A stretch of 64,000 nucleotides of DNA. Origin: Prescottella soli. Its GTDB lineage: Bacteria > Actinomycetota > Actinomycetes > Mycobacteriales > Mycobacteriaceae. This document shows positions 3,590-16,754 of this stretch, piece by piece (position 1 is the first letter of the stretch; every line of letters begins with the position of its first letter). The position numbers and the translations under genes are program-made. Below the pieces are notes generated by a model. The model saw nothing but the letters and a program-made list of their open reading frames with translations. It was not told the origin of the DNA and did not search any database. The stretch covers positions 4,402,001-4,466,000 of the forward strand of contig NZ_CP157276.1 of NCBI RefSeq assembly GCF_040024445.1, written 5' to 3'.

Positions 3590-5077
3590 TCACCGGGCGG
3601 GAGACCGGCGGTGGACGGACTGCGGCGTGAGGTAGGCGTCGAGACCCTCGATCCCGAACTCGACACCCAGCCCGGAGTCTCCGCGTCCGCCGAACGGCGC
3701 GCTGTGGTTGGAGGCGAAGAAGTTGATCCCGACCGATCCGGTGTCGATGCGGCGTGCCACCTCCGCGGCCCGATCCTCGTCCGCGGAGAAGACGATTCCA
3801 CCGAGACCGAATTCGGTGCCGTTCGCGATCCGGACGGCATCGTCGACGGTGTCGTACCGCAGGATCGTGACAACCGGTCCGAAGACCTCCTCGCGGGCGA
3901 TCGTCATGCCCTCGGTGACGTCGGCGAAGACGGTGGGCTGGACGAAGTATCCGCGGTCCGTGTCGGCGCGGTCGCCGCCGGTGGTGACCCGGGCCCCCTC
4001 GGCGCGGGCACCCGCGATGTAGCCGAGGACCTTCCCGTACTGCTCCTTCGTCGCCGACGGTCCGAAGACGGTGTCGTCGTCGAAGGGATCTCCCTGCTTT
4101 GCGGCCGCGACGGTCCGGGTGACGGTCTCGACGACCTCGTCGTAGCGCGACGCGGGCGCGAGGATCCTGGTCGAGATGTAGCAGGTCTGGCCGGTGTTGC
4201 GCATGCAGGAGCGGATGAGCACCTGCGAGAAGGCATCGAGGTCGGCGTCCTCGAGCACGATCGCCGACGACTTCCCGCCGAGTTCGAGCGTGACCGGCCG
4301 CAGCAGTTCGCCGCAGGCCGCGGCGATCTTGCGGCCGACGCCCGTGGACCCGGTGAACGCGACCTTGCGGACCAGGGGGTGGCGCACCAGGCGATCGCCC
4401 ACGGCGCCCGTCCCGGTCACCAGGTTCACCACCCCGGCGGGCACGCCTGCGGCCGCGACGGCCTCGACGACGAACCGGATCGACAGCGGCGTGGACTCGG
4501 CGGGTTTGATCACCGTCGTGCAGCCGGCCATCAGTGCGGGCGCCAGCTTGGCGACCACGAGATTGATCGGAAAGTTCCACGGCGCGATGAGGGCACAGAC
4601 CCCTACCGGGTCACGGAAGACGGCGGTCGTGCCCTGGCCGTTGGGGTACGGCCGCACATCGGCGCTCTCGAGGTACGGCGCCAGCGACGCGAAGTAGCGG
4701 AAGATGCCGGCGGCATTGGCTGCGCTGCCCGAGGTTTCGGCGATCGGGCTGCCGTTCTCCCGGGTCGTGGTCCACGACATGAGCTCGGCCCGCTTCTCGA
4801 TCTCGTCCGCGATCCGCAGCAGATACTGCGCGCGGTCGGACGGACGCAGCTCCGACCACCCCGGTCCGCGGAAGGCGCGGTCGGCGGCATCGACGGCCGC
4901 GTCGACGTCGTCAGCGGAGGCGTTCGGTACCGAACCCCACACCTCTTCGGTGGCCGGGTCGACGACGTCGATGCGCCCGTCGCTCGTCGACGTGACCCAG
5001 GTGCCGTCGACGAAGAGATCGTCGACGTGCGCGTAGGGAAGCTCGCGCCGGTCCCGGCTCGGCACGGTCGGTGTCAT
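3590..5077 (-). CDS. creC: Aldehyde dehydrogenase (CreC-type, 4-hydroxybenzaldehyde oxidation)
   Basis: 495 aa, the standard length for NAD(P)+-dependent aldehyde dehydrogenases. Visible motifs: PWNFP (166-170), FTGSTGVG (241-248), LELGGKS with general-base Glu265, and GQTC with catalytic Cys299. The ATG at 5077 overlaps the stop of the upstream HD gene as ATGA, showing translational coupling. As the last gene of the operon it would oxidise 4-hydroxybenzaldehyde (or a longer 4-hydroxyphenyl aldehyde) to the acid, the CreC step of the C. glutamicum p-cresol pathway. Family assignment is certain; the substrate is inferred from the operon. Confidence 0.85.
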   Translation of the reverse strand: MTPTVPSRDRRELPYAHVDDLFVDGTWVTSTSDGRIDVVDPATEEVWGSVPNASADDVDAAVDAADRAFRGPGWSELRPSDRAQYLLRIADEIEKRAELMSWTTTRENGSPIAETSGSAANAAGIFRYFASLAPYLESADVRPYPNGQGTTAVFRDPVGVCALIAPWNFPINLVVAKLAPALMAGCTTVIKPAESTPLSIRFVVEAVAAAGVPAGVVNLVTGTGAVGDRLVRHPLVRKVAFTGSTGVGRKIAAACGELLRPVTLELGGKSSAIVLEDADLDAFSQVLIRSCMRNTGQTCYISTRILAPASRYDEVVETVTRTVAAAKQGDPFDDDTVFGPSATKEQYGKVLGYIAGARAEGARVTTGGDRADTDRGYFVQPTVFADVTEGMTIAREEVFGPVVTILRYDTVDDAVRIANGTEFGLGGIVFSADEDRAAEVARRIDTGSVGINFFASNHSAPFGGRGDSGLGVEFGIEGLDAYLTPQSVHRRSPAR

Positions 5078-5721
5078 CGCAGCACGTCCGTCTTCAACAA
5101 CGCGCGGGACCGATCGAGGTCCGCGACGGCGATCCGATATCCGGCTTCGGTCTTCAGTTCGGGCAGGATCTCGCTCTCGAGTCGGTCGCAGTACACCGAG
5201 GGCGTCATCCCGAACCAGGACGAGGCGAGTGCGATGCCGACGGGGGCGAAGCGCCACAGCCGATCGGCGTCGCGCACCAGTTCGTCCTCGAGCGACTTGG
5301 CGTCCGGGCGCGTGTCGTGGCCGTCGATGATCTCGCAGACGCGCTCGACGAACTCGTCGTCGTAGCCCAGCGGCGGGAGCACCTCGCGCGCGATGATGCA
5401 GCCCTGGCGCTCGTGCTCGTAGCGGATCGCGGCCTTGCGCCAGTCGCCGCTGAAGCCCTCCGAGAGGATCCGCGATTCGTCGACACGCCCCCATCCGGTG
5501 TCGTGCAACAGGATCGAGACGCGGACGAGGAGCGCGTCCGCCTCCGGGTAGCAGTCGCACAGGCGCTCGGCGTACGCGAACGACGTGGGCAGGTGGATGT
5601 CGTTGCCGCGGGCCCGGGACTCGGGTACCACCGACTTCCAGATCGGGTCCAGGTCGGTGCCGGCGTCGGGCGCCACGACCATCGGCGAGGTGTCGATGGG
5701 GTGTGCGGTGGGGGTACGCAT
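5074..5721 (-). CDS. creD: HD-domain phosphohydrolase (CreD-like)
   Basis: 215 aa HD-superfamily hydrolase. Metal-binding residues: LLHDTGW (H73, D74), H103 in YEHER, H135/D136 in IIDGHDTR and D151 in DADRLWRF. In the C. glutamicum cre pathway a phosphohydrolase (CreD) removes the phosphate from the oxidised aryl phosphate to free 4-hydroxybenzyl alcohol; this gene has the right class and position (between creC and creE). A second related HD protein of 249 aa opens the same operon, and the sequence alone cannot say which is the pathway phosphatase. The start lies 6 bp after the reductase stop. Confidence 0.75.
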   Translation of the reverse strand: MRTPTAHPIDTSPMVVAPDAGTDLDPIWKSVVPESRARGNDIHLPTSFAYAERLCDCYPEADALLVRVSILLHDTGWGRVDESRILSEGFSGDWRKAAIRYEHERQGCIIAREVLPPLGYDDEFVERVCEIIDGHDTRPDAKSLEDELVRDADRLWRFAPVGIALASSWFGMTPSVYCDRLESEILPELKTEAGYRIAVADLDRSRALLKTDVLR

Positions 5722-5727
5722 GACGCG

Positions 5728-7047
5728 TTACCTCGATTCGGGTGGAGTCGAAGCCGAGAGGACATCCGCGCTCTCGGTGGTGATGGTCTTGAGGGCCGTC
5801 GCGGGATCGGCGGCGAGATCGGCCGGGATGTGGGCGCCCTTCGCCAGCGCGTTCCGCACAGCCATGAAGTCGAGCGGGTTGTTGATGCAGTCCGCGGCGA
5901 CGAGGCGTCCGGCGCGGTAGTACAGGACCGTGTACTTGCCCTTCGCGTCGTCCCGGCGCGCGACGGTGGTGTCGTATCCAGTCGACAGGCCCGCGATCTG
6001 CAGTTTCAGATCGCCCTGGTTCGACCAGAACCACGGAATGCTGGTGTATTCGGTGCGGCGGCCGGTCAGCGAGTAGGCGGCGATCTTGGCGTGTTCGATC
6101 GCGTTGTTGACGCTCTCGACGCGGATCCGGTCGCCGGGGTCTGCGCCCGGCACGGGATTGGGCATGTTCGCGCAGTCACCCACGGCGACGGTGGTGCCGT
6201 CGGAGGCCAGCGCGTACTCGTCGACGCGGACGCCGTCGTCGCAGACGAGCCCCATCGACTGAGCCAGTTCGACATTGGGTACGACGCCGATGCCGACGAG
6301 CACGATCTGCGCGGGCAGGACGCGTCCGTCGGCGAGCTCGACGCCCGTCACGACACCGTTTGCTCCCACGATCCGGGTTACCTTGGCGTCCAATTCGATT
6401 CGCATCCCACGCTCGCGGTGTGCCTCGAGGAGATGCGTGGAGGTCTCCGGCCCGACGGCCCGGCCGACCAGGCGCGGTCCGGCCTCGAGCACCGTCGCGT
6501 TCTTGCCCATCTTCAGTGCGCTCGCGGCCGCCTCGATCCCAATGAACCCGCCGCCGACGACGACGACGTCGGTGGCGCCGGGCATGCGCCGGCGCAACTC
6601 CAGGGCGTCGTCGGCGTTGCGCAGGTACAGCACCCCGTCCAGGTCGTGGCCCGGCACGTCGATCGTTCGAGCGCGGGCGCCGACGGTCAGTGCCAGACGA
6701 TCGAAGGGGAACCTCGTGCCGGACGCCGCGACGGCGACGCCCGACCCGTCGGGCCCGCGCTCGACGCTGGTGATGCGCTCACCCTTGACCAGCGAGATGT
6801 TGTGCTCGTCCCAGTATTCCGCGCTGCGGAAGATCAGCGATTCGGCGGACACCAGGCCCTGCAGGAACTCCTTGGACAGTGCCGGCCGCTGGTAGGGGCG
6901 GTGGTTCTCGTCGCCCAGCAACGTGATCGGCGCGGCGTACCCGAGCGCCCGGAGCGAGCCGGCCAGCTGGACGCCGGCCTGACTCGCTCCGACGATGAGC
7001 AGTCCACCGTCGGCACCGCCGGTAGCGGGGGCAGAATCGGAAGCCAT
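5728..7047 (-). CDS. creE: FAD-dependent ferredoxin reductase (CreE-type)
   Basis: 439 aa from the ATG at 7047. N-terminal FAD-binding LLIVGASQAGVQLA, a second Rossmann motif VVVVGGGFIGIEAA for NAD(P)H, and the FAD-contacting VAVGDCAN stretch mark it as a putidaredoxin-reductase-like ferredoxin reductase. It should carry electrons from NAD(P)H to the adjacent [2Fe-2S] ferredoxin and then to the P450. Two bases separate it from the ferredoxin gene. The operon has exactly one reductase, one ferredoxin and one P450, so this is a self-contained class I P450 system. Confidence 0.88.
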   Translation of the reverse strand: MASDSAPATGGADGGLLIVGASQAGVQLAGSLRALGYAAPITLLGDENHRPYQRPALSKEFLQGLVSAESLIFRSAEYWDEHNISLVKGERITSVERGPDGSGVAVAASGTRFPFDRLALTVGARARTIDVPGHDLDGVLYLRNADDALELRRRMPGATDVVVVGGGFIGIEAAASALKMGKNATVLEAGPRLVGRAVGPETSTHLLEAHRERGMRIELDAKVTRIVGANGVVTGVELADGRVLPAQIVLVGIGVVPNVELAQSMGLVCDDGVRVDEYALASDGTTVAVGDCANMPNPVPGADPGDRIRVESVNNAIEHAKIAAYSLTGRRTEYTSIPWFWSNQGDLKLQIAGLSTGYDTTVARRDDAKGKYTVLYYRAGRLVAADCINNPLDFMAVRNALAKGAHIPADLAADPATALKTITTESADVLSASTPPESR

Positions 7048-7049
7048 TG

Positions 7050-7370
7050 TCACACCTGTGTTTCCGGTGTATCCACGTGCAGGTCCATGCCGTCCGTGAG
7101 CTTGACCTGGCAGGACAGTCGGGAGGTGTCCTGCCGGTCCACCGCCGTGCCGTAGAGCATCTCGTCTTCCATGTCGTCCATCGCGGGCAGGTCGCCGAAC
7201 TGGTCCGGCCGGACGAAGACGTGGCACGTCGCGCAGGACAGTGAGCCTCCGCACTCGGCGACGATTCCGGCGACTCCGTTGCGCATCGCGACTTCCATGA
7301 CGGAGTCGCCGACGCCGCCTTCGACGACGCGGGTGGTGCCGTCGTGATCGGTGTAGGTGACTGTGGGCAT
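7050..7370 (-). CDS. creF: [2Fe-2S] ferredoxin (CreF-type, putidaredoxin-like)
   Basis: 106 aa. Cysteine ligands C40, C46, C49 (ECGGSLSCATC) and C87 fit the C-x5-C-x2-C...C pattern of adrenodoxin/putidaredoxin ferredoxins. AGGAGG precedes the ATG at 7370; longer open frame upstream is read-through in the reverse of the neighbouring gene. It would shuttle single electrons from the reductase encoded immediately downstream to the P450 encoded upstream in the operon. Confidence 0.9.
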   Translation of the reverse strand: MPTVTYTDHDGTTRVVEGGVGDSVMEVAMRNGVAGIVAECGGSLSCATCHVFVRPDQFGDLPAMDDMEDEMLYGTAVDRQDTSRLSCQVKLTDGMDLHVDTPETQV

Positions 7371-7381
7371 TGCTGCGCCTC

Positions 7382-8119
7382 CTAGATGAACTGTCGGCCG
7401 CCGTCGACGACGAGTGTCTGGCCGGTGATGTACTTGCTGTCCGGACCGGTCAGGAACAGCGCGGCTCCGACGATGTCGTCGGGCCGGCTGGCCCGCTTGA
7501 TCGCGCCGCGGTCGACGCCGTAGTTCTCGGCGTCTTCCATCAGTCCGTAGCTCGCCTCGGTGAGGGTGAAGCCGGGAGCGATCGCGTTGACGGTGATCGA
7601 CCGTGAACCCAACTCCTTGGCCATCACCCGGGTCAGTGCGACGACGCCGCCCTTCGATGCGACGTAGTGCATCCAGTGCGCCGATCCACTGAGAATCGTT
7701 GCGGAGGAAAGGTTCACGACGGACCCGCCCTCCGCCAGGTACGGGCTGCAGGCCCGCGCGCACATCCACGGACCCTTGAGGTTGACCGCCATGACGCGGT
7801 CCCATTCGCCCGGGTCGATCTCCTCGAACGGGGACCGGGTCACCGCGGCGTAGATTGCGGCGTTGTTGACGAGGACGTCGATGTGGCCGCCACCGAACTC
7901 GGCGACCGCGGCCGCCATCGCGTCGGTGGACTCCACCGAGGTCACGTCCACCGCGGTCGACAGCGCCTCGGCCCCGCGCTCGCGGAGCAGTCGAGCGGTC
8001 TCCTCTGCACCGTCGGCGTCGATGTCGGCGACGGCCACCCGGTAGCCGCGGTCGGCGAATCCTTCGGCGAATGCGCGGCCGAGTCCGCCTGCGCCACCGG
8101 TGATCAGAACGGTTCGCAT
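7382..8119 (-). CDS. creG: Short-chain dehydrogenase/reductase (CreG-type alcohol dehydrogenase)
   Basis: 245 aa from the ATG at 8119, one base after the TGA of creH; the alternative start 27 bp upstream would overlap creH. Cofactor loop TGGAGGLG (7-14), VNNAA (84-88) and the triad S139, Y152, K156 are intact, so this is an active classical SDR. In the cre scheme it oxidises the dephosphorylated 4-hydroxybenzyl alcohol to the aldehyde with NAD+. The function comes from operon position; SDR substrate cannot be read from sequence. Confidence 0.8.
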   Translation of the reverse strand: MRTVLITGGAGGLGRAFAEGFADRGYRVAVADIDADGAEETARLLRERGAEALSTAVDVTSVESTDAMAAAVAEFGGGHIDVLVNNAAIYAAVTRSPFEEIDPGEWDRVMAVNLKGPWMCARACSPYLAEGGSVVNLSSATILSGSAHWMHYVASKGGVVALTRVMAKELGSRSITVNAIAPGFTLTEASYGLMEDAENYGVDRGAIKRASRPDDIVGAALFLTGPDSKYITGQTLVVDGGRQFI

Positions 8120-8120
8120 G

Positions 8121-9938
8121 TCACTCGCCCAAGACCGTGACGACACCCTTGGTGCCGTCGACGTGCAGTCGCTGTCCGGTCTTGATCTGGGTCGACGCGG
8201 ATCCGGTGCCGGTCACGGCCGGCAGACCGTACTCGCGGCACACGATCGCGGCGTGGCTCATCATGCCGCCGATGTCGGTCACCGTCGCCTTGATCTTCCC
8301 GAAGATCGGGCCCCAGGACGGCGCGGTCACCGGTGCGACGAGGATCTCACCGTCCTGGACGAGCGACAGCTCGTCCGAACTGGTGATGACGCGGGCGATG
8401 CCTTCCACGACACCCGGCGACGCGGCCATGCCGCGGAGATTGTCGCCGGACTCGTCGTCGTCGCTGAGCCACTGCTGGACCTGCTCGGTGGTGATTCCGT
8501 AGAGCATGCTCGTGAACGGCTCGGTGATGAACTCCGGGGGAGTGTTGAGCGCCGGCTCCGGGCGGCGGGACTTCAGCGCGTCGATGATGCCTCGACGGCG
8601 TTCGATCTCGGCGGGCCAGTAGTGCGGTCCGGTCGGCTCGGCGCCGACGGCCCATGCGGTCGCGAGGTCGAACAGGGCTTCGCGGACCTCGCCGCGCTTG
8701 AGGTACAGCAGGTCGTCCGCCTCGGGCCAGAACCCTTCCTCGTGCAGCATGCGGGAGAGCTCGCGGACCTTGCGCCAGAACACGCCCATCGTCCAGTGCT
8801 CGATGTAGAAGTTGTGGTTCTCGACGTACGGGTAGGCGGTGCGGGCCAGTCCGAGCTTGGCGTCGAACGCCTCTCGCGTCTCGTCGTCGAGCAGGTCGCG
8901 GTACTCCTCGGCGATCCGGTCGCGCTCGGCCGCGAGTTCGGCGACCGGGCGCATGATGTCCTGCCCCTCGCCGAGGCGCCGGATGTAGTCGGCGATGTAG
9001 CCGAGCGGCAGTTCCTGGTGCTCGATCCAGTACTTGTCGTGGCCGTAGAAGCCGTTGCCGACGGTGAAGTTGAACCACGGATCCTGGGCGCCTTCGTACT
9101 GGGCGATCCACCGGGCGCCGTTCTCCGCAGCCGCCGCGATCCGGGCCAGGGTGCCGTCCGGGTCGTCGGTGTTGTCGAACAGGTCCGTCAGTCCGAGCTC
9201 GACGGCCAGCTTCGCGAGGTTCTTGAGTTCGTCGTCGGGCCGGAACAGCTCCATGTCGACGCCCTGCACCATCGTCGCGATCGACTGGTCGGGGATGTTC
9301 GGGAACACCTCCTTGCAGAAGCCGAAGAAGTCGAGGTACGCGATGTACCCGAGGTTGAGGAACTCGAAGTGGTACTGCCAGTTCTGGTAGCAGAGCTGGA
9401 TCAGCCGGTCGTAGTTCTCGAGCAGAACCTCGGTGCCGTCCTTGGCCTTACCCGAGCGAATGTCCTCGATCGACACCATGTCGGGCAGCTTCGCGAACGA
9501 CAGCGCGTTCATCTCGTCGATCGTCAGGCGAACCTTCTTGTGCCACTTCTCGAGCAGCGACTCCCAGTTCTGGTAGTAGTAGGCGGCGCGCTCCTCGAAC
9601 AACAGGGCGCGCCTGTCGAACTCCTCCTCCGGAGCGGGGATCGGCGACATGTACAGGTAGCCGAGGTGCATCTTGAACTCGATGCCGTTCGAGTTCGGGA
9701 TCAGCAGGTGCCGGGTGTTGTACTGGCCCAGGCACTTGACGGCGAACTCACCGCCGATGGTCTCGAACGGCTTGAACACCGTGGGCCAGTGCTGGCTGTC
9801 GCAGAACCAGAACTTGGCGTCGTCGACGTCCTGACGGTTCGGCTGGAAGACCATGTTGTACGGGTAGAGCTCCTCCCAGCCCTCGGCGCCGGCGGGCGTC
9901 TCGAGGTCGAAGGGGCTCGGAAAGGACTTCATCGTCAT
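8121..9938 (-). CDS. creH: PEP-utilizing mobile-domain protein (CreH-type aryl phosphotransferase subunit)
   Basis: 605 aa; ATG at 9938 with GAGGA 8 bp upstream (a second ATG 6 bases on is possible). The C-terminal ~80 residues are the swivelling phosphohistidine domain of PEP synthase/pyruvate phosphate dikinase: TDIGGMMSHAAIVCRE, with His562 the expected phosphocarrier, followed by GLPAVTGTG. The long N-terminal part is rich in Trp/Tyr and resembles the phenylphosphate-synthase-like partner proteins. There is no ATP-binding N-terminal domain and no PEP-binding barrel, so it needs a partner; the partner domain is fused to the P450 encoded just upstream. Inferred role: transfer of phosphate from ATP to the hydroxyl of p-cresol or another 4-alkylphenol. 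Confidence 0.82.
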   Translation of the reverse strand: MTMKSFPSPFDLETPAGAEGWEELYPYNMVFQPNRQDVDDAKFWFCDSQHWPTVFKPFETIGGEFAVKCLGQYNTRHLLIPNSNGIEFKMHLGYLYMSPIPAPEEEFDRRALLFEERAAYYYQNWESLLEKWHKKVRLTIDEMNALSFAKLPDMVSIEDIRSGKAKDGTEVLLENYDRLIQLCYQNWQYHFEFLNLGYIAYLDFFGFCKEVFPNIPDQSIATMVQGVDMELFRPDDELKNLAKLAVELGLTDLFDNTDDPDGTLARIAAAAENGARWIAQYEGAQDPWFNFTVGNGFYGHDKYWIEHQELPLGYIADYIRRLGEGQDIMRPVAELAAERDRIAEEYRDLLDDETREAFDAKLGLARTAYPYVENHNFYIEHWTMGVFWRKVRELSRMLHEEGFWPEADDLLYLKRGEVREALFDLATAWAVGAEPTGPHYWPAEIERRRGIIDALKSRRPEPALNTPPEFITEPFTSMLYGITTEQVQQWLSDDDESGDNLRGMAASPGVVEGIARVITSSDELSLVQDGEILVAPVTAPSWGPIFGKIKATVTDIGGMMSHAAIVCREYGLPAVTGTGSASTQIKTGQRLHVDGTKGVVTVLGE

Positions 9939-10006: not shown

Positions 10007-12406
10007 TCAGGCGGAGAGTGGCTTGGTCATGGCTCGGCTGATCGAGCTCATGTCGAAGGTCCGCCGAGCGGGTGCGGTGGTCTCGGTTGCCTTGTCCTGA
10101 GCGGGTTTTGCAGACCACACGGTTTCGGGGCGCGATTGCAGCAGCAGGAGGTTCTCGCCGTCCGGGAGGTCGGCATCGAGTGCCCACTCGATGTCCTGGG
10201 GGCATCCGTAGTGCTTCTCGGCGCGTTTGGCGATCGCGGCGACGGCCTTCAGTTCCTCGTCGGTCAGGCTGCGGCAGGAGCGGCGGTCGGCGTCGACCTC
10301 ACGCTCGACGAGGCGGTGCGAGACGGGGTCGGGGACCAGTTCGGCGTGCTTGTCGCCGATCGTCTCGGTCACCACGGTCAGCATCACCTTGTCGAGCACG
10401 ATGTTGTCCGGGGTGACCTGACCGGAGACCACCATCTCGCCGACACCGTACGACGCGTCGACGGTGATCTTCGAGCGGTCCCCGTTGGTGGGGTCCATCG
10501 TCATCGCCACGCCGGCGACCTTGGCGCTCACCATCTTCTGGACCGCGACGGCCATCGAGAGCCCGGCGTCGGGGATGTTGTTCTTCAGCCGGTACGTGAT
10601 CGCGCGGCTGGTGTAGAGCGACGCCCAGCAACGCCGGATGTGCTCGAGCACCTCGTCGATCCCGTTGAGCCACAGGTACGTGTCCTGCTGGCCGGCGAAG
10701 CTGGCGTCGGGCAGGTCCTCCGCGGTCGCGGACGAGCGCACCGCCACCGGCACGGGGTGGTCGAACCGTGACTGCAGCCGCTCGTACGCCTCGATCGTCA
10801 AGTGTCGCAGCGGCTCCGGGACGGGTCGCGAGGTGATCGCGTCCCGGATCCGTGCGGAGACCGCGTCCACACCGGAGACGTCCTCGGGATCGAGACCCTC
10901 GAGCAGCTCACGGATCTCGTCGGCGATGCCGGCCGACGCGATGAAGTCGTCGTAGAGCATCGTGGTGAGCGCGAATCCGGGCGGCACCGGCATGCCTGCC
11001 GCCGTCAGCGACACCAGCGAGGCGCACTTGCCGCCCAACTGATCGTGCTGCGGCTCCTGCGGGCCGTCGAAGAACTGGATGTACCGGGCCGACGCGGTAT
11101 CGGTGGTGCCCTCCGTGTCGGTCGCGCTGTCGCCGGGCGCGTCCCACCGCACCGGCACCGCAGTCGGTGCCCGGAACGACAGGTTCTCGCCGAAGGTGAT
11201 CGCGTCGGGATCGACGAGCTCGAGGAACGGCGCCGTCTTCAGCACCTCCTCGACGACGATGCGGGTCTGGAGCTTGGCGAGCATGTTGCCCAGGCAGTAG
11301 TGCAGGCCGAAGCCGAAGGCGAGGTGCTCGCGCGCATTGTCCCGAGCGATGTCGAAGATCTCGGGGTCGGCGAACTGCGACTCGTCCCGGTTGGCGGAAC
11401 CCATCACCAGCAGGATCTCGGACCCGGCCGGAATCGGGGTCTCGCCGATCATCGTGTCCTCGAGTGCCTTTCGGCGCCAGGCGACGATCGAGGGGGAGTA
11501 GCGCAGCACCTCTTCGACGGCCTTCGGGATCTTCTTCGGATCCTCCCGCAGCGCCTCCCACTGGTCCCGGTGGGCCAGCAGCAGTCGCAGCGTGTTGGAG
11601 ATCAGCGTCGTGGTCGTCTCGTGTCCCGCGAACAGCAGGCTGTAGCAGACCGACGCGATCTCGTGGTCGGTGATCTCGGCGCCCTCCTGCTGGGCGCGCA
11701 CCAGGTCGGCGACGAGGTTGTCGCCCCCGCGCTCGTGGGCGTCGGCGACCAGCCGCAGGCACTCCTGCCAGTATTCGACCAGGTTGTGCGCGTGCGGAAT
11801 CTGCTGCTCGTCGCTCAGATTGCCCCACGTCATCGCGGCGCGGGACTCGGACCAGCGCTTGTACTGGTCGACCTGGCTCGTGTCGGCGCCGATCAGAGTC
11901 AGGATCGTCACGGTCGGCACGTCGTAGGCGAGGTCGCGCAGCAGGTCGCCGCGGCGGTCCTCGTGAGCGAGCAGGGCCCGCAGCTGCTGATCGACGTTCG
12001 CCCGGATGAAGGGCTCGAGCGCCTTGTAGCGGCGCGGAGTGAACGCCTTCGAGGTCGCCTTGCGGATGCGTGTGTGCTCCGGTGGCCTGCGGGCGGACAG
12101 GCCGGAGTAGGCGGTGAACCCGCCGTCGTTCATGATCTGCTTCGCCTGCGGCCCCCGTTCACGCACCGGTGCCTGCGCGTTCTCGCTGCTGAAGATCTCC
12201 CAGTTGTCGAAGACGGCCTTGATGTCGTCGTAGCGGGTGACCACCCAGCAGCCGATCCGCTCGTCGAACATGACCGGCTCCGCCGAGCGGAGGCGGGCGT
12301 AGGCCGAGAACGGGTCGTTCATGTCGAACGGTTCGTAGCCGTGGTGGTCGACGGGGCAACCACTCGTGGAGACGGTGTCGGTCCTCTTCTGCGTCGGCGC
12401 GGACAT
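10007..12406 (-). CDS. creJI: Cytochrome P450 fused to PEP/pyruvate-binding (ATP-binding) kinase domain (CreJ-CreI fusion)
   Basis: 799 aa in one uninterrupted frame from the ATG at 12406. Residues ~25-422 are a complete P450: I-helix AGHETTT (260-266), ExxR at E299-R302 and heme loop FGFGLHYCLG with Cys371. A ~20-residue Asp/Thr/Ala-rich linker (422-440) leads to a PEP-synthase N-terminal ATP-binding domain (441-770): LGGKCASL (457-464), VRSSATAEDLPDASFAGQQ (556-574), AGVAMTMDP (631-639), QDIEWA and LLLQSRPET (754-762). In C. glutamicum these are separate proteins: CreI supplies the ATP-dependent half of the 4-cresol kinase and CreJ hydroxylates the phosphorylated product. The phosphohistidine half is the next gene. 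The fusion would place phosphorylation and oxidation on one chain. Stop 68 bp before creH; start 2 bp after the upstream HD gene. Confidence 0.9.
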   Translation of the reverse strand: MSAPTQKRTDTVSTSGCPVDHHGYEPFDMNDPFSAYARLRSAEPVMFDERIGCWVVTRYDDIKAVFDNWEIFSSENAQAPVRERGPQAKQIMNDGGFTAYSGLSARRPPEHTRIRKATSKAFTPRRYKALEPFIRANVDQQLRALLAHEDRRGDLLRDLAYDVPTVTILTLIGADTSQVDQYKRWSESRAAMTWGNLSDEQQIPHAHNLVEYWQECLRLVADAHERGGDNLVADLVRAQQEGAEITDHEIASVCYSLLFAGHETTTTLISNTLRLLLAHRDQWEALREDPKKIPKAVEEVLRYSPSIVAWRRKALEDTMIGETPIPAGSEILLVMGSANRDESQFADPEIFDIARDNAREHLAFGFGLHYCLGNMLAKLQTRIVVEEVLKTAPFLELVDPDAITFGENLSFRAPTAVPVRWDAPGDSATDTEGTTDTASARYIQFFDGPQEPQHDQLGGKCASLVSLTAAGMPVPPGFALTTMLYDDFIASAGIADEIRELLEGLDPEDVSGVDAVSARIRDAITSRPVPEPLRHLTIEAYERLQSRFDHPVPVAVRSSATAEDLPDASFAGQQDTYLWLNGIDEVLEHIRRCWASLYTSRAITYRLKNNIPDAGLSMAVAVQKMVSAKVAGVAMTMDPTNGDRSKITVDASYGVGEMVVSGQVTPDNIVLDKVMLTVVTETIGDKHAELVPDPVSHRLVEREVDADRRSCRSLTDEELKAVAAIAKRAEKHYGCPQDIEWALDADLPDGENLLLLQSRPETVWSAKPAQDKATETTAPARRTFDMSSISRAMTKPLSA

Positions 12407-12408
12407 GT

Positions 12409-13158
12409 TCACTCCTGGACTCGGGGTGTCGGGTGCTCGTAGAGCGCGGTGTCTGGGATATTCGTTGTTGCGGAAGACAATTCGCGAAGATGCGGTGACA
12501 CGTCGGTCGACGCGGTCGCGGCGAACGCGAGAGCCATCACGCGGGCCGGCTCGGTGCACAAGTGGGCGTGGGTGCGAGATCCCACCAGCCGGAGCGTCTC
12601 GGACGGGGCGAGCCCGAACCATCGGCCGACGGTCGCCAGCCCGTGCGGGGTGATCCGCCAGAGCTTGTCGGCATCCTTGACGACCGCGTCGCTGGGGCTC
12701 GTGGCCTCGCGGCGGCTGTCGTGACCGTCGATGATCGCGGTGATCTCGTCGATGTCGGCGTCGGGTGTTCCGAGGTCGGCGAGGATCGACCGTGCGATCG
12801 CGGCGCCCTCGATCTCGTGGACGCGGACCAGTTCCGGGTGCCGCGGCCGTGGTGCGATCGCCTCCAGCACCAGTTCCTCCGGCACCGTCGACCAGCCGAT
12901 GTCGTGGAGCAGGATCGCCGGCAGCACGATCTCGGGCCGCGCCCCCGGCACCTGGTCGACCAGGGCGCGGGCGATGCCGAACGCATACACCGTGTGAGAG
13001 TCGTTGTCCCGCACTCGAAGATGCGGTTCCGCTCGGCGCCAGATGCGGTCGTGTGCCGCGTCCATTCCGATCAGGTGGGGTACATCGGCGGCGCCCGGAA
13101 CGTGAGCCCGGACGTCCCGGCCGAGGAGGCCGGTCATCCCAGTGCTGTTGGTCTCCAT
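12409..13158 (-). CDS. Second HD-domain phosphohydrolase, first gene of the cre operon
   Basis: 249 aa; AAGGAGG precedes the ATG at 13158. HD motif LLHDIGW (H85, D86), IIDGHDSR and KDADKLWR are shared with the 215-aa HD protein further down the operon, and the 'WFG..PSE' region after the last Asp is also similar, so the two are paralogues. Extra length is at the N-terminus (~15 residues) and C-terminus. It could act on a different aryl phosphate (for example the unoxidised phosphorylated phenol, resetting futile product) or be the true CreD. Ends 2 bp before the P450 fusion. Confidence 0.75.
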   Translation of the reverse strand: METNSTGMTGLLGRDVRAHVPGAADVPHLIGMDAAHDRIWRRAEPHLRVRDNDSHTVYAFGIARALVDQVPGARPEIVLPAILLHDIGWSTVPEELVLEAIAPRPRHPELVRVHEIEGAAIARSILADLGTPDADIDEITAIIDGHDSRREATSPSDAVVKDADKLWRITPHGLATVGRWFGLAPSETLRLVGSRTHAHLCTEPARVMALAFAATASTDVSPHLRELSSATTNIPDTALYEHPTPRVQE

Positions 13159-13213: not shown

Positions 13214-13236
13214 GATTCCTTCCGATGAACGGAATC
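13214..13236 (-). promoter_or_regulatory. Candidate operator upstream of the cre operon
   Basis: Nested inverted repeats directly after the IclR stop codon and ~60 bp ahead of the first cre gene: TTCCG-ATGAA-CGGAA at 13220-13234, flanked by GATTCC/GGAATC. Palindromes of this size are typical of IclR-family binding sites, and the IclR gene is adjacent. Assignment is inference from position. Confidence 0.4.
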
Positions 13237-14032
13237 AGCCCAACCAGAAACTGCGTATTGCCTGTTCGACGGACTGCGGAAGCGCCTTGAACACCTTCTC
13301 GAGGCGGGCACCGGTGCCGCGCAGCGGTGGCAGGTACCGGGCCATGTCCGCCGAACGGTTGCTCGGGAGCACCACGCCGATCGCGGCGACGACCTCGTCG
13401 TTCGGTGCGCGGACCGGGATCGCGACCGAGCACGCCCCGAGCGCCATCTCCTCCTGCGTCTTCGCGTAGCCCTGCTCGCGGATGGTGTCGAGTTCGCGGG
13501 CCAGGCGCGCCGGTTCGGTGATCGTGAACCGCGAATGGCGTTCGAGGGAGTTGGCGAGGTACGTCTCTCGGAACCAGGGATCCTGGTAGGCCAGAAGGAC
13601 TTTCCCGACCGCGGTCGGATGCAGCGGCAGACGGCTGCCGACACGCGCGAGTCGGGGGACGCGTCGGCTGCCGTAGATGCGATCGACGTAGATCACCTCG
13701 GTGCCGCGGCGCACGACGAAGTGGACGGTCTCGTGGGTGAGGTCGAACAGGTCCTGGAGCGGGGGGTGGACGATGTCGCGGAGTCGGACGCCGGCGTTCT
13801 GGCCGATCTCCCACAGGCGGATGCCGACCTGGTATCGACCGTCCGGCACGCGGAGCAGGGCGCCCCACCGCTCGAGTTCGCCGACCAGGCGGTGAACCGT
13901 CGTCAGGGGCATGCCGGTCTCGGCGGCGATGTTGCTCAACGCGATAGGGCCGGGATCGTCCTCGAACACTTCCAGGATGGCGAGCACTCGCGACGTCGTG
14001 GTCCGGCCGGCTTCCCGGGGAGTACCTGCCAT
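13235..14032 (-). CDS. IclR-family transcriptional regulator of the cre operon
   Basis: 265 aa. N-terminal winged helix-turn-helix (about 10-75: SRVLAILEVFE..., TGMPLTTVHRLVGELERWG) and a C-terminal effector-binding domain (90-255) with the family signature around HPTAVGKVLLAY and GACSVAIPV. It lies upstream of and in the same direction as the cre genes, 76 bp from the first. IclR proteins commonly control aromatic catabolic operons in response to pathway intermediates, and the C. glutamicum cre cluster also carries its own regulator, so it is the likely p-cresol-responsive switch. Confidence 0.85.
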   Translation of the reverse strand: MAGTPREAGRTTTSRVLAILEVFEDDPGPIALSNIAAETGMPLTTVHRLVGELERWGALLRVPDGRYQVGIRLWEIGQNAGVRLRDIVHPPLQDLFDLTHETVHFVVRRGTEVIYVDRIYGSRRVPRLARVGSRLPLHPTAVGKVLLAYQDPWFRETYLANSLERHSRFTITEPARLARELDTIREQGYAKTQEEMALGACSVAIPVRAPNDEVVAAIGVVLPSNRSADMARYLPPLRGTGARLEKVFKALPQSVEQAIRSFWLG

Positions 14033-14742: not shown

Positions 14743-14854
14743 GGGTCCTCCTCTCGACGGGTGTGCACGGTGCCGCGCGGCTCCCTCCAATGAGCTGAAT
14801 GCTCCAGACGATTAAAGCGGAGCCGGACCGGGTGTCACTTTTAGTATCACTATC

Positions 14855-14866
14855 GTCAATCTTGAC
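14855..14866. promoter_or_regulatory. Small palindrome in the XRE/IclR divergent region
   Basis: GTCAA-TC-TTGAC in the AT-richer stretch between the divergent regulator genes. It contains TTGACA on the plus strand and TTGACG on the minus strand, so it could be overlapping -35 elements or an operator. Weak evidence. Confidence 0.25.
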
Positions 14867-14948
14867 ATACAAATGCCAGGTGGGCACACTCGGATGCGGC
14901 GCCGGGTCGCCGGAGATGTCCGTTTCGCAGAGTGAAGTGGTAGGGGTC

Positions 14949-15755
14949 ATGGGTGTGCAGGAGCTGACCGATCTGTCGCAGACGAGCTCGGGGCGGGACG
15001 GCCGCGCAGCGGTCGACAAGGCGATGAGCCTGCTCACCAGCTTCGGCCAGGAGGCGCATTCCGGGGTTGGCGTGAGCGAACTCGCCCGGCGGTCCGGGCT
15101 GAGCAAGTCGACGGCCTTCCGGATCCTCGGCATGCTCGAGCGCAACCACGCCGTCGAGCGGGTCGGCAGCGACTACCGGCTCGGTGCCGAGCTCCACAAC
15201 CTCGGCGGCCGGGTATACGCACCGCAGCACTCCGTCGTCCGCGACGTCCTCACGCCGTTCCTGGCCGATCTGTACGAGGCCACCCGCCAGACGGTTCACC
15301 TCGCGGTGCTCCACGGCGCCGACATCCTCTACATCAACAAGCTCTACGGTCACCGCTCCGTCGCGTCGCCGTCCCGGGTCGGCGGCCGCGCGCCGGCGCA
15401 CTGCACCGCGGTGGGCAAGGCGCTGCTCGCGTACTCCGGTCAGGATGCCGAGGGTCTGATCGGGTCGCAGCTGGCGGCGCGGACGACGCACACGATCACC
15501 GACATCGGGCAGCTGCGGGCCGAGCTGTCCCAGGTGCGCCGGGCCGGTGTGGCCTTCGACCGTGAGGAGACCCGTGAGGGGCTCGTGTGTGTCGGGGGCG
15601 TCGTGACGGGCGCCGGATCGCGGCCGATCGCGGCGTTTTCCGTCTCCGGTCAGGCCTCCCGCTACTCGCCTGCGAGTGCGGAGCCGGCTTTGCGCCGGGT
15701 GTGCCTGGCTGCGTCGCGTGCGCTGTCCGCGTCGCAGGTCGCACTCGCGTCGTAG
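14949..15755 (+). CDS. IclR-family regulator adjacent to the mhpB-type gene
   Basis: 268 aa from the ATG at 14949 (AGGGGTC upstream). The frame is open from 14799, but the first 50 residues are unlike the family; an ATG at 14916 is the main alternative. Winged HTH at about 20-80 (VSELARRSGLSKSTAFRILGMLERN) and an IclR effector domain with HCTAVGKALLAY and REETREGLVCVGG. It is 66 bp upstream of and co-directional with the extradiol dioxygenase gene, so it probably regulates the ring-cleavage pathway. It is clearly distinct in sequence from the cre-linked IclR. Confidence 0.83.
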   Translation: MGVQELTDLSQTSSGRDGRAAVDKAMSLLTSFGQEAHSGVGVSELARRSGLSKSTAFRILGMLERNHAVERVGSDYRLGAELHNLGGRVYAPQHSVVRDVLTPFLADLYEATRQTVHLAVLHGADILYINKLYGHRSVASPSRVGGRAPAHCTAVGKALLAYSGQDAEGLIGSQLAARTTHTITDIGQLRAELSQVRRAGVAFDREETREGLVCVGGVVTGAGSRPIAAFSVSGQASRYSPASAEPALRRVCLAASRALSASQVALAS

Positions 15756-15821
15756 CCGCCGCCACCACAACGTTCGGGAAGAACCTGTCCCGGAAACTGA
15801 TTCAGGCCGAAGGAGCCGTTC

Positions 15822-16754
15822 ATGCCAGTCGCGCTGGTTGCGCTGTCCCACTCACCGCTGATCGGGCTCAACGATCCCGCTCAGCAGGTGCTCGACGAGG
15901 TCGATCACGCCGTTGCCGGGGCGCGGAAGTTCATCGAGGAGTTCGATCCCGAGGTCGTCGTGCTGTTCGCGCCCGACCACTACAACGGCTTCTTCTACGA
16001 GAAGATGCCCCCGTTCGCGATCGCCACGGGCGCAATCGCGGTGGGCGACTTCGGATCTGCGGAGGGTGGGATCCTCGTCGACGCGGAACTGGCCAACCGG
16101 ATCGCCGAGGGTGTGCTCGAGCGTGACATCGACCTGACGATCTCGGCCCGCATGGTGGTCGACCACGGCTTCGTGCAGCCGCTGGAGATGCTGTTCGGCG
16201 GCATCCAGTCGGTCCCGGTCGTGCCGGTGTTCATCAATGGTGTCGCGGCCCCGCTCGGCCCGGTGCGCCGCATCCGCCAGTTCGGCAAGGCGCTCGGCGA
16301 GGCGGCGTCGCTGCTCGACAAGCGGGTGCTGTTCCTGGCGTCCGGCGGCCTGTCGCACGACCCGCCGGTGCCGATCCTCGCGGGCGCCCCGCCGCGCGTG
16401 GCGGAGGCCCTGATTCTCGGCAACCCGCCCACCCCCGAGCAGCGTGCCCGCGGTGAGCAGCGCGTCGTGCAGTCCGGAATCGACCTGGCGGCCGGCACGT
16501 CCACCCGCAAGCCGCTGAATCCCGAGTGGGACAACGACGTTCTCGACATCGTCGCGTCCGGTGACCTCGAGCAGTTCGACGGCTGGTCCAACGAGTTCTT
16601 CGAGGAGCACGGCGGCGGGTCGTCGCACGAGGTGCGCACGTGGATCGCCGCGTACGCGGCGCTCGCGGCATCCGGTTCGTACGAGCTGCGGTCGCGCTAC
16701 TACCGCGCCATCCCCGAATGGGTCGCGGGCTTCGCGGTGACCACCGCGAAGTAG
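15822..16754 (+). CDS. mhpB: MhpB-type 2,3-dihydroxyphenylpropionate 1,2-dioxygenase (class III extradiol)
   Basis: 310 aa, close to the ~314 aa of E. coli MhpB. LigB-superfamily signatures: ALVALSHSPLIG at the N-terminus, VVLFAPDHYNGFFY, the VVDHGFVQPLE histidine and GGLSHDPP histidine expected for Fe(II) binding and acid-base catalysis. It should open 3-(2,3-dihydroxyphenyl)propionate or 2,3-dihydroxycinnamate at the meta position. AAGGAGCC precedes the ATG. Upstream steps are supplied by the Rieske dioxygenase and dihydrodiol dehydrogenase at 21-27 kb and downstream steps by the C-C hydrolase and hydratase there. Confidence 0.88.
   Translation: MPVALVALSHSPLIGLNDPAQQVLDEVDHAVAGARKFIEEFDPEVVVLFAPDHYNGFFYEKMPPFAIATGAIAVGDFGSAEGGILVDAELANRIAEGVLERDIDLTISARMVVDHGFVQPLEMLFGGIQSVPVVPVFINGVAAPLGPVRRIRQFGKALGEAASLLDKRVLFLASGGLSHDPPVPILAGAPPRVAEALILGNPPTPEQRARGEQRVVQSGIDLAAGTSTRKPLNPEWDNDVLDIVASGDLEQFDGWSNEFFEEHGGGSSHEVRTWIAAYAALAASGSYELRSRYYRAIPEWVAGFAVTTAK

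Follow-up and report, generated by a model that had tools for sequence, protein, structure and literature searches.

The locus analyzed here lies in a window of 64,000 nt from Prescottella soli, and it raises the question of whether a cytochrome P450 and one part of a phenol kinase are really made as a single protein in this bacterium, and what their joining might do. The frame in question (creJI) spans positions 10007 to 12406 on the minus strand (ATG at 12406; the plus strand of this interval contains a stop codon) and stays open over 799 codons. Pfam matched both of its parts above the cutoff (i.e., p450 at residues 102 to 391, E = 2.5e-29, and PPDK_N at residues 455 to 775, E = 1.1e-107), in agreement with the first-pass annotation, which had described one 799-aa frame with a complete P450 and a complete PEP-type domain. 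On the minus strand, a CreJ-type P450 half (residues 1 to 422; 11141 to 12406) is followed by a linker (residues 423 to 441; 11084 to 11140) and by a CreI-type ATP-grasp half of the PEP synthase type (residues 442 to 775; 10082 to 11083). The linker, previously described as an Asp/Thr/Ala stretch of about 20 residues, is indeed rich in these amino acids and about 19 residues long.

The P450 half shows the signatures of its family (i.e., a heme Cys loop, ExxR, and AGHETT in the I helix). The residues named beforehand, Cys371 (codon 11294 to 11296), AGHETT (260 to 265), and ExxR (E299 and R302), are all present, in columns whose identity across 65 split relatives is 97% or more. Its best PDB match was the P450 of 5xjn/7ccf and 5gwe (E of about 2e-200 over 405 residues; 668 bits), which we take to be Corynebacterium glutamicum CreJ; the next P450 among the matches listed scored 262 bits. 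The kinase half contains the PPDK_N ATP-grasp domain with the family-conserved residues, and it departs from the CreI type in being fused to a P450 and not a free-standing subunit. Its best match was 9goj (E = 6e-79), presumably the structure of HpeI reported in PMC12167813. No second CreJ or CreI copy was found in the same genome at E 1e-110 (next best matches, 34% for the P450 and 40% for the kinase). Judged from their sequences, both halves are complete, retain nearly all family-conserved residues, and are the only close CreJ and CreI copies of the genome.

The neighboring genes, all on the minus strand, form a cre operon, with creG-F-E-D-C in order beside creH-I-J. The separate mobile-domain protein (CreH) that had been proposed at 8121 to 9938 was confirmed by sequence and Pfam. 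By gene order, the following positions are those of CreG (SDR alcohol dehydrogenase; 7382 to 8119), CreF (2Fe-2S ferredoxin; 7050 to 7370), CreE (FAD ferredoxin reductase; 5728 to 7047), CreD (HD-domain protein; 5074 to 5721), and CreC (aldehyde dehydrogenase; 3590 to 5077). Since the HD proteins of the cluster matched the PDB only weakly (best E values, 0.00056 and 0.3), CreD is assigned as a phosphohydrolase by position. Upstream of the fusion lie a second HD-domain protein (12409 to 13158; start uncertain, at 13158, 13137, or 13065) and an IclR-family regulator, probably of the cluster (13235 to 14032). In C. glutamicum, cg0637 to cg0641 comprise the same creG-F-E-D-C gene set in the same order, followed by creH, creI, and creJ (cg0637 to cg0645; PMC7764795). 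Among the 72 distinct creJ/creI pairs compared below, 42 come from loci of at least 18 kb; the five downstream genes were matched in all 42 of these, the order G-F-E-D-C in 40, and the IclR regulator in 40, while the 42/42 count for the second HD gene is uninformative, its query also matching CreD.

Because the gene order matches that of the C. glutamicum cre operon, the cluster is likely to serve the catabolism of p-cresol or a near alkylphenol through phosphorylation, P450 oxidation, and dephosphorylation, and the assignment of the halves to the CreJ and CreI types and of the cluster to the p-cresol type is upheld. Synteny and similarity point to this substrate; a 4-alkylphenol other than p-cresol is possible. 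A PobA-like gene elsewhere in the genome scored 470 bits, below the cutoff of 538.7, in a search that is not decisive (matches in 7 of 14 control genomes, above the cutoff in 1). Beside the cluster, on the opposite strand (14799 to 16754, plus), the window encodes an IclR-type regulator and a LigB-type ring-opening dioxygenase.

Is the joined frame a property of the organism or of its assembly? An error of sequencing or assembly would make two ordinary genes look like one. Such errors or decay do occur in this very gene, as a frameshift in one genome of the genus shows, and a further case, in Cryobacterium aureum, rests on one draft. However, 4 of the 14 genomes of the window's genus (the window's included) carry an unbroken fusion, one more has an open junction with a frameshift in the P450 half, and Rhodococcus tukisamuensis (L032) carries the fused frame as well. 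We therefore rejected an assembly error for the window lineage, where several assemblies agree on an open junction and this explanation is practically excluded; the fusion is natural, as had been supposed, and not a sequencing slip. The remaining 9 genomes of the genus gave no match at E 1e-110. The frameshifted copy (L006 and L102, from genome G008, which is 79% complete) is otherwise fused.

A second way back to two proteins would be an internal restart of translation. The window gene contains GGAGG at about codon 432, with no in-frame start codon after it before codon 457. ATG, GTG, and TTG are absent in frame between codons 420 and 456, including the whole linker, so that a restart yielding free CreI is unlikely. 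A third would be cutting: the protein would be made fused and then cleaved in its linker to give the usual pair. The AlphaFold model predicts a disordered linker (pLDDT below 50 at residues 424 to 435), which would suit such cleavage, but the linker varies in both length and sequence and thus retains no obvious site, and we consider cleavage quite improbable. The model of the fusion comprises two confident domains (mean pLDDT, 84) with a pTM of 0.57; only 3 rows of its 52-row alignment are full-length, and this low pTM is therefore weak evidence for flexibility, which weakly suggests that the linker is a loose tether.

How common is the arrangement? Contigs were scanned with patterns taken from the window protein, and the best 80 matches were kept. 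From all the loci gathered, those with a P450 match below 44% identity or with one half missing were left out, as were three short loci (L028, L076, and L100); 13 duplicates were then removed from the remaining 85, leaving 72 distinct pairs. One open frame was found in 6 of the 72, a proportion that is not a natural frequency because near relatives are over-represented in the scan. A seventh pair (L006) has a junction without a stop in the CreI frame, and the class given to it in this count is an artifact of the upstream frameshift. The genes overlap by exactly 4 nt in 23 pairs and have a gap of 0 to 15 nt in 27; in 16 of the 72, the genes are split but lie in one frame with at least one stop codon between them. 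Of 401 genomes in the family sample, 16 gave a match: 10 have split genes, 5 are fused, and 1 is frameshifted with an open junction. The class sample of 394 genomes gave 4 matches, namely the window's own genome, 2 with split genes, and 1 in which the P450 half alone passed the limit. Genome G130 carries halves identical to those of R. tukisamuensis, and one of the six genomes of its genus matches. The genes are also split in Corynebacterium gallinarum (L061), in the three rows grouped with it, and in the only 2 of 72,556 plasmid records that matched at E 1e-100. The fusion is thus uncommon, and most of the related bacteria examined make two proteins; still, the fused frame is common to several genomes, and the possibility raised beforehand that all close relatives encode two proteins does not hold.

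The two Rhodococcus plasmids (L124 and L125; one typed as conjugative and one as mobilizable) have split P450 and CreI genes in a cluster that adjoins toluene monooxygenase genes. A toluene monooxygenase could make p-cresol from toluene. Two HD genes also occur in the Rhodococcus ruber plasmid cluster, and one is shown in that of R. oxybenzonivorans.

When the two halves were concatenated, with the linker left out, a tree built by a quick method without bootstrap grouped R. tukisamuensis and the frameshifted row with the window-lineage rows in one clade (SH-aLRT, 99), which suggests a single fusion event for the window lineage, probably in an ancestor shared with R. tukisamuensis. The tree needs three state changes if the frameshifted L006 is counted as split, and we reckon two if its junction is counted as fused. 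C. aureum was placed among split Cryobacterium rows. In that genome (L027; junction near 10280 to 10310), the halves are joined by a junction one base longer than in the split Cryobacterium relatives (27 versus 26 nt between anchors), and this appears to be either an independent fusion of recent date or an error in the sequence of a single draft. Because the creI ATG is kept there, free CreI may still be made in C. aureum.

In the window lineage, the fusion probably arose when two closely spaced genes lost the stop codon of creJ and the start codon of creI. It may also have been no more than that, i.e., a neutral joining of two domains that do not interfere with each other and bring no gain. 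Little is needed for such an event, given the pairs that already lie in one frame or overlap by 4 nt, and in C. aureum one additional base accompanies the joining. The linkers of the lineage measure 18, 36, and 54 nt between anchors, with length changes in whole codons, and their dN/dS, which is defined for seven pairs and computed on only 3 to 18 codons, was 0.54 to 1.59. Two observations stand against neutrality: the fusion persists throughout the six rows of a clade spanning two genera, and the lineage linkers shown contain neither ATG nor GTG in frame. We give the neutral reading slightly less than an even chance.

Both halves are under purifying selection (NG86 dN/dS, 0.09 to 0.28 in all 10 pairs of five fused genes). 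None of the 98 CreI columns that are at least 97% identical in 65 split rows was changed in the six fused-lineage rows; of the 125 such P450 columns, 4 were changed in some of these rows and none in all six. By their low dN/dS and kept conserved columns, both halves appear functional, and the comparison revealed no change specific to the fusion. Residue changes linked to the fusion were sought and rejected, none being common to all six rows. Two conserved P450 columns are altered throughout the window genus and unaltered in R. tukisamuensis; therefore, no fusion-linked adaptation is seen.

What the fusion might do depends on how the kinase works. In the HpeHI phenolic dikinase, as reported in sections of PMC12167813, ATP is bound by the I subunit, while both the histidine and the phenol site lie on the H subunit; HpeH alone moves phosphate between phenols, forms no stable complex with HpeI, and matches rifampin phosphotransferase. 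The CreH of the window has a phenol-binding and a swivel domain, according to its sequence, alignment, and AlphaFold model (pLDDT, 91.3; pTM, 0.90). Its swivel motif, TDIGGMMSH, is of the T/SxxGGxxxH type, and the presumed phosphohistidine, His562 (codon 8253 to 8255), is invariant in 37 aligned rows. Most of the model could be aligned with rifampin phosphotransferase 5fbu (E = 9.9e-18; TM-score by query, 0.62; rmsd, 8.1), and CreH is thus predicted to fold like the substrate and swivel part of that enzyme. On the basis of this match and of the HpeHI homology, the fused CreI half is most likely the ATP-presenting subunit, with the phenol site and the phosphohistidine on the separate CreH. The CreI half would bind ATP and then phosphorylate the histidine of CreH, which would swing back and phosphorylate the phenol. 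By analogy with characterized homologues, a CreE-type reductase and a CreF-type ferredoxin would feed electrons to the CreJ half, which would oxidize the alkyl group of the aryl phosphate; CreD would then remove the phosphate, and CreG and CreC would oxidize the product to 4-hydroxybenzoate.

These assignments change two proposals of the first-pass annotation. It had the kinase half itself making the aryl phosphate, while by homology the I subunit only presents ATP. It also had the fusion keeping the phosphorylated phenol beside the heme; because the phenol site is by homology on CreH, the fusion would not by itself hold the aryl phosphate there. Instead, it would bring the place where CreH is recharged, and not the phenol site, near the heme. 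Nor is equal dosage a clear gain, because many split relatives have overlapping (the 23 pairs above), probably translationally coupled genes.

A benefit could nevertheless follow if the tether kept CreH near the P450, so that the aryl phosphate reached the heme before it diffused or was hydrolyzed and selection kept the fusion. Each ATP requires CreH to come back to the CreI half, and because HpeH and HpeI form no stable complex (PMC12167813), a tether could matter. The fusion is common to two genera whose halves differ by a dS of 0.55 to 0.82, and the clade includes no split row except the one with the upstream frameshift, in which the junction is open. Against such channeling stand the location of the phenol site by homology on CreH, the drifting linker length, the two P450 columns that show no fusion-linked adaptation, and the lack of the fusion in most cre operons examined. 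We therefore regard it as possible but doubtful.

The C terminus bears on the same idea. Most CreI-type proteins examined end in a low-complexity stretch with a short motif. A strict pattern of this tail occurred in 73 of 89 distinct tails (mean in 500 shuffles, 1.6; maximum, 6) and a looser one in 77 of 89 (mean, 6.1; maximum, 16), both patterns having been chosen after the tails were seen. In the fusion, the corresponding segment is a low-confidence tail in the AlphaFold model (residues 766 to 799; 10010 to 10111, minus strand), and the motif is retained, as channeling would favor. The tail is a possible docking peptide for CreH. A selected P450-kinase metabolon, in which the tail recruits CreH and the aryl phosphate is released beside the P450 that consumes it, in a tethered hand-off from dikinase to monooxygenase, is an unlikely extension. 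In Kocuria dechangensis (L022:10273-13230), CreI and CreH form one open frame, a single-chain layout like that of rifampin phosphotransferase, and the tail motif between them looks degenerate by eye.

Taken together, we consider it highly probable that the window encodes a natural in-frame creJ-creI fusion of one origin within a cre (p-cresol/alkylphenol) operon, with the cre functions predicted above and a flexible tether. Its product most likely works as a bifunctional protein in which each ATP-grasp unit has one P450, and colocalization would have a modest effect or none.

All catalytic parts of this system have known counterparts. C. glutamicum CreJ and CreI (cg0645 and cg0644) are the same two enzyme types in the same operon order; they are listed as separate genes in the cluster description of PMC7764795, as had been stated, and are handled separately in the relevant text of PMC9549646, whereas here they form one chain. 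HpeHI of Rhodococcus rhodochrous GD02 likewise pairs an ATP-grasp I subunit with a substrate/swivel H subunit that has the same histidine motif, but there the I subunit stands alone and a carboxylase, not a P450, takes the next step, according to PMC9618137 and PMC12167813. Rifampin phosphotransferase has the same three domain types, all in one chain, while here the ATP-grasp domain is joined to a P450. CYP116B/P450 RhF also combines a P450 with a second functional part. Those fusions carry their own redox partner; here, in contrast, the P450 is joined to a component of an ATP-dependent kinase, while its redox partners are separate proteins.

The claim that no such fusion had been described agrees with our search of the open-licence full-text literature, in which no description of a creJ-creI-type fusion was found among the matches listed (primary CreJ papers lie outside its scope). 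The sections of PMC13101518 on another p-cresol route in R. opacus 1CP mention no such fusion, and the matched text of PMC8796525 only lists the pathway. As far as searched, the fused arrangement is new. A multi-protein cascade reconstructed in Escherichia coli oxidizes phenols with a P450 while they carry a temporary phosphate tag (PMC9549646), and natural fusions make it easy to test whether tethering would increase the flux through such a cascade. Together with the CreI-CreH frame of K. dechangensis, the window-type fusion shows which junctions tolerate joining.
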